A DNA stretch of 33,212 nucleotides, taken from contig JASJEH010000098.1 of the NCBI GenBank assembly GCA_030064755.1, positions 1 to 33,212 of the forward strand, in the 5' to 3' direction. The DNA comes from Methyloceanibacter sp. (lineage in GTDB: Bacteria; Pseudomonadota; Alphaproteobacteria; Rhizobiales; Methyloligellaceae). Positions 22,592 through 27,848 of this stretch are shown here, piece by piece. The position numbers and the translations under genes were made by a program. The notes beneath the pieces were generated by a model. It did not search any database. It saw only the letters and a list, made by a program, of their open reading frames with translations, and was not told the origin of the DNA. Positions within the stretch are counted from its first letter, which is position 1; every line of letters starts with the position of its first letter.

Positions 22592-22627
22592 AAAAAAACG
22601 CCCCGGCGCATGCCGCGCCGGGGCGTT
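22592..22627 (-). terminator. Strong intrinsic terminator of the small exported protein gene
   Basis: A 13-bp perfect stem (22597-22609 with 22615-22627) with a 5-nt loop is followed on the minus strand by a run of seven T on the 22592-22598 side (two overlap the stem). It lies 22 bp after the stop at 22650. Confidence 0.93.
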
Positions 22628-22649: not shown

Positions 22650-22910
22650 CTAGTCTTCCAAGACCTTCTTGATGATCTTGAAATCCTTGTCGAGGTAGAT
22701 GTCATACTGCTTTCTATCCTCGCAGATGGCATCCTCCGCCTCGTAGCCACTCTTTTCGGCTTCGATTTCACGATCGGCGACCGTGCAACCGGCTGCCTGT
22801 ACGGCCTTCTGCACGCCCTCGATTTCCTCCTCGGTGAGCGCCCGGTCGCCCGCAAATGACGCGGTCGCCGAAGCGAAGAAAAGAGCCATAGCTGCTGCAA
22901 GCATCTTCAT
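22650..22910 (-). CDS. Small exported PepSY-like protein
   Basis: The 86-residue protein has a clear signal peptide ([20 protein letters not shown]) and a mature part of about 66 residues, acidic, with two cysteines (in AGCTV and AICED). The helix [18 protein letters not shown] followed by a strand-rich end ([17 protein letters not shown]) resembles PepSY-type domains, which bind or inhibit periplasmic proteins; this link is tentative. The ATG at 22910 was chosen because GGAGGA lies 7 nt upstream and the signal peptide starts there. It is monocistronic, with a strong terminator after it, and is divergent from arsR. Confidence 0.8.
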
Positions 22911-23039
22911 GTTCTGGTCCTCCATTAACACGCTCCGGATATGGGCAGCCGGGGTCGGACTTAGAAGGTTCAAAAGCTCAGATTACAGAACATTAAGCAT
23001 CGACCAGGGCTGAGGGCGCGAGGCCGTTCGCCATCGGCA

Positions 23040-23069
23040 TTGACAACCGACGTCTCGTACCATTACTTT
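23040..23069 (+). promoter_or_regulatory. Candidate promoter of the arsR operon (leaderless)
   Basis: TTGACA at 23040-23045 and TACTTT at 23064-23069 are 18 bp apart. RNA would start at about 23075, the arsR ATG. No ribosome-binding site precedes the ATG, which agrees with a leaderless message. Confidence 0.5.
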
Positions 23070-23097
23070 ACCTTATGGTTAAGTATTCAGACGAGAC
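23052..23097. promoter_or_regulatory. 46-bp dyad over the arsR start, candidate ArsR operator
   Basis: GTCTCGT (23052-23058) pairs with ACGAGAC (23091-23097), and TACTTTACC (23064-23072) pairs with GGTTAAGTA (23077-23085) with one mismatch. Both pairs share the centre 23074.5, at the first base of the start codon; 17 of 23 positions are symmetric. It covers the -10 box, as expected for autorepression by an ArsR-type protein. Confidence 0.55.
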
Positions 23098-23515
23098 CCT
23101 TGATCGCACGTTCGCGGCCCTGGCCGACCCAACAAGGAGAGCGCTGCTCGCCCGCCTTGAGACGGAAGCGGATGGCGTGCCGGTGAGCATCCTCGCGCAA
23201 CCGTTTTCGATGTCATTGCCGGCAATACTGAAACACCTGAAGGTGCTCTCGGATGCCGGCCTCGTCAGCCGAAAGAAGACCGGCCGCACCGTCACGTGTC
23301 GTCTGAATGCCGACCCCATGGAGCATGCCATGGACTGGCTCGAACACTACCAGCGCTTCTGGACCGAGCGGCTCGACCGTCTCGCAAACTTTGTGGAGGA
23401 AGACCCATGTCCGCAGTCTCGGAACTCACAACAAAACCAAGCCTCTCACTCAAGCGGCGCTTCAACGCGACGCCCGAAAAGGTCTACGCGGCATGGACGG
23501 ACCCCGCGCAGATAG
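23075..23515 (+). CDS. ArsR-family transcriptional regulator
   Basis: The protein is a winged-helix ArsR/SmtB-type repressor: ALADPTRRALLARL (about 15-28), then the recognition region SMSLPAILKHLKVLSDAGLV (45-64) and a wing (RKKTGRTVTCRL). The segment HAMDWLEHYQRFWTERLDRL is typical of ArsR regulators that precede SRPBCC/AHSA1 genes; no metal-binding cysteines are present. The C-terminal 35 or so residues (after about 111) overlap the SRPBCC gene in another frame and look like unselected sequence, so the family-like part ends near EEDP. It is first in the arsR-SRPBCC-VOC-DUF1579 operon, with a dyad over its start codon. Confidence 0.92.
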   Translation: MVKYSDETLDRTFAALADPTRRALLARLETEADGVPVSILAQPFSMSLPAILKHLKVLSDAGLVSRKKTGRTVTCRLNADPMEHAMDWLEHYQRFWTERLDRLANFVEEDPCPQSRNSQQNQASHSSGASTRRPKRSTRHGRTPRR

Positions 23516-23853
23516 CCCAGTGGTTCGGACCGCCCCATGTAGACTATGTCGAGGCCCAGGCCGACGCGCGAGAAGGCGGCCACTACCGCATCTTCATGCG
23601 CGACAAAGACGGCGATGAGCACGACGTCAGTGGCGTCTATCGCAAAGTGATCCCCAACCAAGAGCTGGTTTTCACCTGGGCCTGGAAATCGACGCCGGAG
23701 CGAGAGTCCCTTGTCACCATACTGATCAGGCCGGACGGCGACGGGACACTCTTCACGCTGACTCACGAACAGTTCTTTGACGAGGTTGCTCGGGACAATC
23801 ACAACAAGGGTTGGACGGCTTGTCTCGACGCGCTCGAAGAGTTCTTTGGGTAG
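23407..23853 (+). CDS. SRPBCC (AHSA1-like) protein
   Basis: The 148-residue protein has the START/SRPBCC fold of the AHSA1 group: SLKRRFNATPEKVYAAWTDP (13-32), the QWFGPPH segment, a central GGHYRIFMRDKDG and SGVYRKVIPNQELVFTW. The ending is NHNKGWTACLDALEEFFG. These proteins form a hydrophobic pocket that binds small ligands, and the ligand is unknown. It starts inside the arsR reading frame (109-nt overlap) with GGAGGAAG about 6 nt upstream of the ATG. Genes of this type linked to ArsR regulators are common and often lie near VOC and DUF1579 genes. Confidence 0.92.
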   Translation: MSAVSELTTKPSLSLKRRFNATPEKVYAAWTDPAQIAQWFGPPHVDYVEAQADAREGGHYRIFMRDKDGDEHDVSGVYRKVIPNQELVFTWAWKSTPERESLVTILIRPDGDGTLFTLTHEQFFDEVARDNHNKGWTACLDALEEFFG

Positions 23854-23914: not shown

Positions 23915-24331
23915 ATGAAACTGAACCCCTATCTGAACTTCGATGGCACATGCGAAGAGGCCATGAAGCGCTACGCCGAGGTCCTCGGCGGTGAGATTGT
24001 CGCCATGATGCACTTCGACGAAATGCCAGGGGAGCGGGACTTCCCACCCGAAATGGCCAAGAAGGTCGCCCATGCGCGGCTTCGGATTGGCCAATCCGTG
24101 CTCATGGCGTCAGACGCACAAGGTCCATACGCGCCCATGCAAGGTGCTTCGATCACCCTCAACATTACCGAGCCTGACAAGGCCGAGGCCGTCTACAACG
24201 CCTTACTCGAAGGCGGTACTTCGCTGATGCCGCTCGACGAAACGTTCTGGGCGCACAAATTCGGTATGCTCGTCGATCGCTTTGGCACGCGTTGGATGGT
24301 CAACTGCGAGAAACCCGGGGACTGGTCCTAG
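23915..24331 (+). CDS. PhnB/YjdN-like VOC protein
   Basis: The 138-residue single-domain VOC protein is of the PhnB/YjdN type: KLNPYLNFDGTCEEAMKRYA at the start, GGEIVAMMHFDEMPG, then LMASDA and a C-terminal MLVDRFGTRWMVNCEKP. This group lacks the usual metal ligands of glyoxalases and has no confirmed activity. The ATG at 23915 has GAGG 6 nt upstream; the longer reading overlaps the SRPBCC gene. It is third in the ArsR operon, 61 bp after SRPBCC. Confidence 0.9.
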   Translation: MKLNPYLNFDGTCEEAMKRYAEVLGGEIVAMMHFDEMPGERDFPPEMAKKVAHARLRIGQSVLMASDAQGPYAPMQGASITLNITEPDKAEAVYNALLEGGTSLMPLDETFWAHKFGMLVDRFGTRWMVNCEKPGDWS

Positions 24332-24405: not shown

Positions 24406-24933
24406 ATGGCCGAGGCGACAGCGCCCGAAAGCAAACCCGACGAAGCGAGCATGTCGGCCAAGCCCCAGGAAGAGCATGATTGGCTGCATCGGCTAATCGG
24501 CGACTGGGGCTTTGAAGGTGAGTGCATCATGGACCCGAGCGAGCCCCCGACGAAGAGCGTTGGCGAGGCCACGGTTCGGTCACTCGATGGTTTGTGGATC
24601 TTGTGTGAAGGAGTCGGCGATGCGCCAGACGGCGTACCCGTCAACAGTCTAATTACATTGGGCTACGATCCTCAGAAGAAGCGGTTTGTCGGCAGTTTCA
24701 TCGCGGGGTGCATGACGCATTTGTGGACGTATGAGGGCACGCTGGACCAAACGGGCAAAGTGCTGACACTCGACACGGAAGGACCGGGCTTTTCAGACGA
24801 CGGAGCCTTAGTCCCCTATCAGGACGTGATCGAAATCGAGAGCAACGATCACTGGACGATGAAGTCGCGAATGCGCGGCGAGGACGGTCAGTGGTTTCAA
24901 TTCGTGACGGCCCATTACCGGCGCAAGACGTAA
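24406..24933 (+). CDS. DUF1579 family protein
   Basis: The 175-residue cytoplasmic protein of the DUF1579 family has, after a short charged N-terminus, HDWLHRLIGDWGFEGECIMD (about 25-44). It then shows DGLWILCEGVG, TLGYDPQKKRFVGSFI, HLWTYEGTLDQTGKVLTLD and a C-terminal MRGEDGQWFQFVTAHYRR. The fold is probably a lipocalin-like beta-barrel; function is unknown. The ATG at 24406 has GGATAGGG upstream, and 24451 is an alternative. It ends the ArsR operon. Its stop is 2 bp from the stop of the convergent AsmA-like gene. Confidence 0.88.
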   Translation: MAEATAPESKPDEASMSAKPQEEHDWLHRLIGDWGFEGECIMDPSEPPTKSVGEATVRSLDGLWILCEGVGDAPDGVPVNSLITLGYDPQKKRFVGSFIAGCMTHLWTYEGTLDQTGKVLTLDTEGPGFSDDGALVPYQDVIEIESNDHWTMKSRMRGEDGQWFQFVTAHYRRKT

Positions 24934-27761: not shown

Positions 27762-27848
27762 TTTTGGGTTCAGGATCAAGGAAAAATTCGTGAGCATATC
27801 TGGCGATACGGTCGAGAATTTTTCCGGCGATAATGAGCCCAAAACGCC
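27758..27848. repeat. Nested double hairpin
   Basis: The outer arms are 27758-27771 and 27835-27848 (13 of 14 paired, the odd one a G-U). The inner arms GGAAAAATTC (27780-27789) and GAATTTTTCC (27816-27825) are perfect. Spacers of 8 and 9 nt separate the two stems and the apical loop is 26 nt. The outer motif recurs at 27951-27964 as GCGTTTTCGGGCTC. Confidence 0.75.

Follow-up and report, generated by a model that had tools for sequence, protein, structure and literature searches.

A putative ArsR operator centred on the predicted leaderless start codon of its own gene in Methyloceanibacter and its relatives

The arsR Locus

The DNA analysed here, referred to as the window, is a stretch of 33,212 bases from a Methyloceanibacter sp. 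genome (3.0-Mb assembly, 157 contigs, 90.6% complete). It carries an arsR-like gene at the head of a probable operon of four genes, with a long inverted repeat laid across the arsR start codon. The features are as follows.

23040..23045, plus strand: -35 element TTGACA (sequence; TTGAC spacing in homologues)
23052..23097, no strand: whole 46-bp dyad (outer arms 23052-23058 / 23091-23097 not conserved)
23062..23067, plus strand: probable -10 element ATTACT (register of relatives; weak match in the window)
23066..23072, plus strand: left putative operator half-site CTTTACC, -9 to -3, in the upstream arm (co-variation with the coding arm)
23075..23077, plus strand: start codon ATG, predicted transcription start and operator axis (-35 spacing; no Shine-Dalgarno motif)
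23077..23083, plus strand: right putative operator half-site GGTTAAG, +3 to +9 (co-variation; codon bias at Val2)
23075..23515, plus strand: arsR-like gene for a predicted autorepressor of 146 aa (HTH_20 and HTH_metalloreg profiles)
23410..23853, plus strand: SRPBCC (AHSA1-like) gene, same probable operon (AHSA1 profile, 3.7e-33)
23915..24331, plus strand: VOC / 3-dmu-9_3-mt (YjdN-like) gene, probable third gene of the operon (open reading frame and profile matches)
24406..24933, plus strand: DUF1579 gene, probable fourth gene of the operon (open reading frame and profile match)

Profile comparison places the window ArsR among the ArsR/SmtB-type winged-helix regulators, with 40.4 bits against HTH_20 (cut-off 27) and 70.1 bits against HTH_metalloreg NF033788 (cut-off 55); HTH_5 scores 20.7 bits, slightly under its cut-off of 22. 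The best-matching curated autorepressor subfamily is the SdpR type NF033789 (3e-15), and membership in it was rejected because the 55.9 bits obtained compare with an NCBI cut-off of 100. A cysteine motif of the ELCxCxL type forms the metal site of ArsR/SmtB regulators. In the recognition region of the window ArsR, where the residues around the helix-turn-helix read VSILAQPFSMSLPAILKHL, no metal-site cysteines were found, and because this region is free of cysteine we do not propose metal sensing. Among the named genomes of the collection, the closest relative is Methyloceanibacter methanicus (L021), whose protein is 80% identical to the window ArsR; its arsR frame stops after 51 codons, and the region matching the window shifts frame in the contig.

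With an SRPBCC/AHSA1 gene directly downstream on the same strand, the locus is an ArsR-SRPBCC two-gene module. The two genes overlap by 106 nt out of frame (23410-23515). Among the MVK/MVN-type relatives listed, 31 of 37 have arsR frames of 136-160 aa, the remaining ones being 111-128 aa long, which suggests that the overlapping tail is conserved. Upstream of arsR, the minus strand holds a strong terminator-like hairpin of 14 bp followed by T's (22597-22627).

Geometry of the Dyad and Its Chance Expectation

The arms of the inverted repeat (23052-23072 and 23077-23097) are 21 nt long, 76% complementary and 4 nt apart. Its axis falls between 23074 and 23075, that is between -1 and +1 of the arsR ATG, and the ATG at 23075 is the earliest possible start in the arsR frame. 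The right half-site GGTTAAG is made of the G of the ATG and codons 2-3 (Val-Lys), and the left half-site carries one mismatch in the window, CTTTACC against CTTAACC.

Over positions ±3 to ±23 the arms pair at 16 of 21 positions, a level attained at 2 of 33,166 centres in the window (the second at 27803) and, at any centre, in 1 of 2,000 dinucleotide shuffles of 22901-23250. The centre at 27803 is a second strong dyad in its own right, with 17 of 21 pairs at ±3 to ±23 and all seven outer pairs. The inner part (±3 to ±11) pairs at 8 of 9 positions, as do 7 of 33,190 centres and 61 of the 2,000 shuffles, so that in this single sequence alone the inner dyad is only moderately unusual. We judge it real because it is conserved across homologues.

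The Straddling Layout Among Homologues

In total, 204 homologous loci (203 distinct proteins) were collected from named genomes, the window's own genome, its order, its phylum and further fetched stretches. Among places without a locus, 60 at the order level were fetched mostly from the top of the list and not in strict rank order, and 60 outside the order, from the phylum search, nearly by rank, with at least one (in G524) skipped. Of 30 phylum-search loci, L121, L122, L123 and L127 were omitted as repeats of earlier places; also unscored are L001 (identical in position to L002), L004 (with an E value of only 0.001) and the pattern hits L211-L213. Two loci whose reading frames break early, L021 and L026, were dropped after the TTGAC-spacing analysis, leaving 201 scored. 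Homologues were picked by query similarity among the matches listed, and the fractions given below are therefore not population frequencies.

We call a locus straddling when at least 7 of 12 positions pair at the ATG axis together with at least 4 of 7 at ±3 to ±9, or when a motif hit lies at the axis. Among the matches listed, 99 of the 201 scored homologues straddle (51 of 111 representatives) and 102 do not. On a tree of the 111 representatives the straddling label requires at least 17 changes, 4 of them forced by well-supported branches, compared with 37 for shuffled labels; as judged from this tree, the layout is clustered by descent yet repeatedly gained or lost. An SRPBCC relative lies downstream in all 99 straddling loci, and in 92 of the 100 non-straddling homologues having at least 600 bp of sequence (2 of the 102 are shorter). 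The preliminary description of this DNA had supposed that other ArsR-SRPBCC modules may share the arrangement, and these 99 loci, together with 14 of 18 haloarchaeal loci described below, bear this out.

The symmetry also emerges when loci are chosen by promoter spacing. The 106 loci selected by TTGAC at -38 to -33 alone pair on average at 8.0 of 12 positions at the ATG axis, against a background median of 3.06 over centres -60 to +20; 84 of them reach 7/12 and the ATG is the best centre in 75. For the 97 loci lacking this spacing the axis mean is 4.05, and 13 reach 7/12. As a control we took 879 open reading frames on either strand of the same DNA, each running from the first ATG behind a stop codon and no shorter than 120 aa. 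Many of these are surely not genes; 19 (2.2%) reach 7/12 at the ATG. Ten control frames have TTGAC at -38 to -33, and the only one reaching 7/12 (L115) is an in-frame upstream ATG of an arsR gene. At L189, the best dyad lies at an ATG 15 nt downstream of the assigned start. Given these two start choices, the non-straddling class is over-counted.

The same comparison separates the inner from the outer arms. The outer arms GTCTCGT/ACGAGAC (±17 to ±23) pair at 7 of 7 positions in the window; in the 98 other straddling loci the mean is 1.73 of 7 with a maximum of 4, and the Methyloceanibacter-group loci L021, L032 and L033 show 1, 2 and 4 pairs. The outer 7-bp arms, conserved in none of the 98 other straddling loci, were rejected as part of the operator and are probably a chance or local feature. 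Judged by its homologues, the conserved element is about 18-24 bp long, not 46 bp. Of the 46-bp coaxial dyad first described, the axis thus stands exactly and the inner arms (about ±3 to ±9) recur in 99 of 201 homologues; the outer arms drop out.

Promoter and Leaderless Start

The initial proposal was a TTGACA/TACTTT promoter with RNA starting at the ATG. TTGACA is present at 23040-23045, and its leaderless spacing is common: across 203 homologues, 89 TTGAC hits begin at -36/-35 relative to the ATG, and 106 of the 203 loci carry TTGAC at -38 to -33. Among representatives, TTG(A/C)(C/A) at -38 to -33 marks 46 of 51 straddling loci vs. 15 of 60 others. The -10 element has to be shifted. In Bradyrhizobium-type orthologues it is TATACT, with 7 nt between it and the ATG (TATACT-aaaccat/ATG), and the register of these relatives maps to ATTACT (23062-23067) in the window rather than to TACTTT (23064-23069), both being weak matches. 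A simple sigma-70 scan of the window did not list the arsR promoter.

Upstream of the window arsR we found neither a Shine-Dalgarno-like motif, as the earlier claim of a missing ribosome site had it, nor favourable anti-Shine-Dalgarno pairing, and initiation of this type was rejected for the gene on both counts. Such motifs occur in 4 of 51 straddling vs. 10 of 60 other representatives, and anti-Shine-Dalgarno pairing in straddling loci is no better than in shuffled sequence. Because of the TTGAC spacing and the missing Shine-Dalgarno motif, we read arsR as leaderless, and the homologues support an RNA starting at the A of the ATG.

Co-variation Between the Upstream and Coding Arms

Co-variation was measured in 60 nonredundant (75% identity) TTGAC-selected loci. 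Positions ±4, 5, 6, 7, 8 and 9 pair in 48, 48, 47, 41, 50 and 37 of the 60, at each position more than the highest count among 1,000 shuffles. At ±10 to ±12 these loci show no co-variation above shuffles, because the upstream side there resembles a -10 box. Over ±3 to ±12, 404 of 600 cells pair in register vs. 102-208 with the centre slid by 1-3 positions. In sister contrasts the odds ratio reaches 5.1 in register vs. 2.4-3.7 when slid; the slid contrasts are also significant, more weakly, and therefore shared ancestry and divergence account for part of the co-variation signal. On a tree of 83 loci built on residues 13-108, with the N-terminus excluded, exact compensatory events number 11 in register vs. 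0-5 slid.

Codon usage points in the same direction, with Val2 encoded by GTT in 32 of 34 straddling representatives vs. 22 of 287 other Val codons (p = 3e-27). The arms are clade-specific and internally matched, as in MVK (GTTAAG), MVE (GTTGAA), MLN (CTTAAC), MPY/MPN (CCTTAC, CCTAAC) and MAN (GCTAAC) proteins, and each of the diverse N-termini (MVK, MVE, MLN, MPN, MAN, MVQ, MVY) is mirrored in the upstream arm of its own locus. The coding and upstream arms thus appear to co-evolve.

Operators Placed Elsewhere

Two homologues that are 68% identical to the window ArsR, L019 and L020, retain the same half-sites ACTTAACC-N4-AGTTAAGT at 33 and 30 bp upstream of the ATG, and their N-terminus reads MAT..., not MVKY. 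The distance from TTGAC to the operator centre is 35/36 in 67 of 85 pairs at straddling loci; at other loci the largest peak is at 34 (20 of 66 pairs) and the rest are spread. Promoter and operator seem to form a single module whose centre is near the predicted start of transcription; the layouts seem to differ in where the start codon stands, either at the module centre or after a leader.

Further placements were seen. In L003 (a paralogue in the window's own genome), L080, L089, L101, L109, L164, L171 and L210 the operator is centred at -6, and its right half-site ends with the A and T of the ATG (ATAACCAT ATGGTT/ATG). A clade with upstream operators (L046, L047, L056, L133, L192 and similar loci) often has two overlapping operators 16 bp apart, which mostly share TTAATTAA (not in L056). 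Many bacterial MVE-type loci carry a second operator at -39/-40, the right half of which is the -35 box GGTTGAC; by motif score, the window holds no second operator.

Straddling Loci in Haloarchaea and Other Phyla

Six plasmid loci were read after a protein search. Four reach at least 7/12 at the ATG, from Caballeronia (7), Azospirillum (11), Shinella (9) and the archaeon Haladaptatus (8); the remaining two, from Sinorhizobium meliloti (L215) and Nostoc (L219), have dyads upstream of the start. Since its dyads lie upstream, the L215 homologue on pSymB of S. meliloti 1021 cannot serve to test the leaderless reading.

Of 32 haloarchaeal rows listed, 18 were read (L218, L220-L236), and these loci are interrelated and were found with a straddling query. 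At least 7/12 pairs form at the ATG axis in 14 of the 18, and the mean of 7.06 is the highest of all centres from -60 to +20, followed by -2 (5.78) and -35 (5.61); only 6 of the 18 have the ATG as their single best centre. Val2 is GTT in 16 of 16 cases vs. 23 of 120 Val codons elsewhere (L235 and L236 excluded from the count). Positions -31 to -25 are A or T in 14 to 18 of the 18 loci, resembling a TATA box, and such a stretch is about where the haloarchaeal TATA box usually lies. A dyad at -35/-36 is among the best two in 12 of the 18, and its right half extends into the TATA-like stretch. Judged by position, a second putative operator in haloarchaea is often over the TATA box instead of the -35 box.

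Single loci from two further groups straddle as well, Nocardia farcinica L237 (10/12, half-site GTTCAG) and Gemmatirosa L238 (11/12, half-site GTTTAC), their starts having been chosen among in-frame ones as the records are unannotated there.

Which Protein Reads the Operator?

The half-site class tracks the recognition helix: GTTAAG goes with SLPA(I/V)MKHLD, GTTGAA with SLAAASKHIK and CCTTAY with MALPSF(A/T)QH, an association that is, across these clades, confounded with descent. At the level of single residues, 39 of 51 straddling representatives combine K53 (window numbering) with G at +4 and the matching upstream base, and 7 combine Q53 with C and the matching upstream base, so that 46 of 51 follow a rule between residue 53 and base +4 with both arms agreeing; two have Q53 and C with an upstream G, and three show other combinations. 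Only 1-2 independent switches underlie the rule on the tree. Outside the discovery set, Q53 goes with C at +4 in the archaeal L236, and the 21 further straddling-type loci in which residue 53 could be read, many of them closely related, combine K53 with G; the L235 protein is too short for residue 53 to be read. The rule is suggestive, a lead and not a proof.

A 20-bp motif search allowing up to 3 mismatches returned, in the 90.6% complete assembly, the site itself and two 3-mismatch hits, and the reversed-pattern control returned 12-13 hits. A wider regulon was rejected, the motif occurring once in the assembly and the two 3-mismatch hits being fewer than those of the control. The preliminary idea that ArsR could cover its own -10 region and start codon at once is borne out as far as comparison goes, through arm co-variation and the helix/half-site association, both of which point to ArsR as the probable reader.

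Proposed Mechanism and Alternatives

We hold it highly probable, on comparative grounds, that arsR is leaderless and that the dyad is the operator of its own ArsR, centred on a transcription start that coincides with the start codon. From this layout we infer where the RNA begins, that ArsR binds the DNA and represses, that the four genes are co-transcribed and that an inducer exists, in the following way. Transcription from TTGACA and the -10 element (about 23062-23067) would start at the A of the ATG. A repressor dimer would recognise CTTTACC-N4-GGTTAAG centred on this start site, with the left half-site over the -10 region and the right one formed by the G of the ATG and codons 2-3. Once bound, it would cover -10/+1 and leave RNA polymerase unable to open the promoter, the two excluding each other. 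The arsR-SRPBCC-VOC-DUF1579 genes would thus stay off until a signal or ligand frees the repressor; that the ligand is related to SRPBCC or VOC proteins is a guess only. The first codons would serve double duty, encoding Met-Val-Lys and forming half an operator.

A by-product of protein constraint could imitate this picture, if Met-Val-Lys/Glu-Tyr were kept at the N-terminus for the sake of the protein and the upstream arm were simply an A+T-rich -10 region. The N-terminus is indeed conserved within clades, and -12 to -10 resembles a -10 box that pairs with the Tyr codon TAT without co-variation (±10 to ±12). However, amino acid conservation leaves unexplained the GTT codon at Val2 (32 of 34), the compensatory changes at ±4 to ±9, the many different N-termini that mirror their own upstream arms, and L019/L020, which at 68% identity keep the operator upstream and do without MVKY; we regard this explanation as very unlikely. 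Still less credible is that the dyad works in RNA, as a hairpin in a longer transcript masking the start codon for translational control. The arms could pair if the transcript began upstream of about 23052, but the -35 spacing sets the predicted RNA start at the axis, so that only one arm would be transcribed, and many upstream operators keep a distance of about 34 from TTGAC (the largest peak, 20 of 66 pairs) while their distance to the ATG varies. With an RNA beginning at the axis and holding one arm only, the dyad would therefore act in DNA and not as an RNA hairpin.

Two more alternatives accept an operator in DNA and differ in its reader or its extent. Binding of ArsR to the dyad is a prediction, which leaves room for another regulator; against this speak the half-site classes that go with the ArsR recognition helix across clades, the G/C at +4 that tracks K/Q at residue 53 in 46 of 51 representatives and in the archaeal L236 (suggestive, given few independent switches), and the motif being essentially unique in the genome and located on arsR itself. 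We give a foreign regulator a very small chance. The entire 46-bp element might also be functional, for example with the outer arms as a second dimer site flanking the core, and the coaxial 7/7 outer match is indeed rare, only 5 of 33,166 window centres having one. This match is nevertheless absent in L021, L032 and L033 and at background level in the 98 other straddling loci, making a functional 46-bp element unlikely, if a little less so than the foregoing. We thus retain the short, start-centred operator read by its own ArsR.

A Portable Regulatory Cassette?

The spread of this layout can be put into a broader, more speculative proposal, to which we lean only slightly more than to its opposite. 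The module may be a portable cassette, in which the repressor carries half its operator in its first codons, the G of the ATG included, and any promoter that leaves the gene leaderless would set the operator at the transcription start, so that the gene could pass from host to host, even across the divide between Bacteria and Archaea, with its control intact. A second operator would be built on the core promoter element of the host (the -35 box GGTTGAC at -39/-40, or a haloarchaeal TATA GGTTTAATAT-like element at -35/-36), and the N-terminus would be dictated by DNA recognition, not by protein function.

Here, the opening codons of a protein hold a regulatory half-site of which the same protein is the probable reader. 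As the arms appear to co-evolve in step with the recognition helix, the family would lend itself to working out, from natural variation, the DNA code of ArsR proteins, such as residue 53 vs. base +4. If transcription regulators are often leaderless, this layout suggests one concrete reason for it, and its easily seen dyad signature could help to annotate true starts and operators across a large module family. The layout returns in haloarchaea, where the core promoter element is a different one, and we see in this a test case for regulation that travels with its gene.

Relation to Known Systems

The nearest described case within the ArsR-like proteins is the autorepressor Rv2034 of Mycobacterium tuberculosis, with a footprinted 8-4-8 palindrome close to its own start codon and protected regions at -30 to +3 and -26 to +8 (PMC3338718). 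Like the window operator, it consists of two arms with a 4-bp spacer near the start of an ArsR-like gene; unlike it, the palindrome is not described, in the available text, as centred on the start codon, its half-site is CCGTAAGT, and the word "leaderless" does not occur there (PMC3338718). Brucella ArsR6 is likewise autoregulated (PMC8509827). The leaderless side is best matched by NreA of Mesorhizobium, a CsoR/RcnR-family repressor of its own operon whose leaderless transcript was mapped to the A of AUG (PMC12724321). Predicted window arsR and NreA are alike as leaderless autorepressors with the promoter directly upstream of the start codon, but NreA belongs to another protein family and its operator occupies the spacer between the -35 and -10 boxes (-30 to -12) and does not reach into the coding sequence (PMC12724321).

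Leaderless mRNAs of regulators are also known from lambda cI, Tn1721 tetR and CvkR (PMC9938897), from cI/cro of PY54 (PMC4488713) and from restriction C proteins (PMC4824078). Several of these have operators in or near their own promoters; in the portions of these papers available, however, none is described with a start-codon-centred operator and a co-evolving coding half-site. Leaderless mRNAs are common in alphaproteobacteria, with 375 in Caulobacter and 171 in S. meliloti according to accessible parts of the published start-site papers, the main texts of which do not contain "ArsR"; nor does the main text of the leaderless-gene paper of Zheng 2011 (PMC3160421). In Cupriavidus, the available text reports leaderless mRNAs as enriched among transcription genes, including one arsR. 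In the open-licence literature, as far as its accessible text goes, we found no description of an operator in which a coding half-site co-evolves with the upstream one throughout a protein family. Autorepression and leaderless mRNAs are each well known; in the layout proposed here the two are fused.
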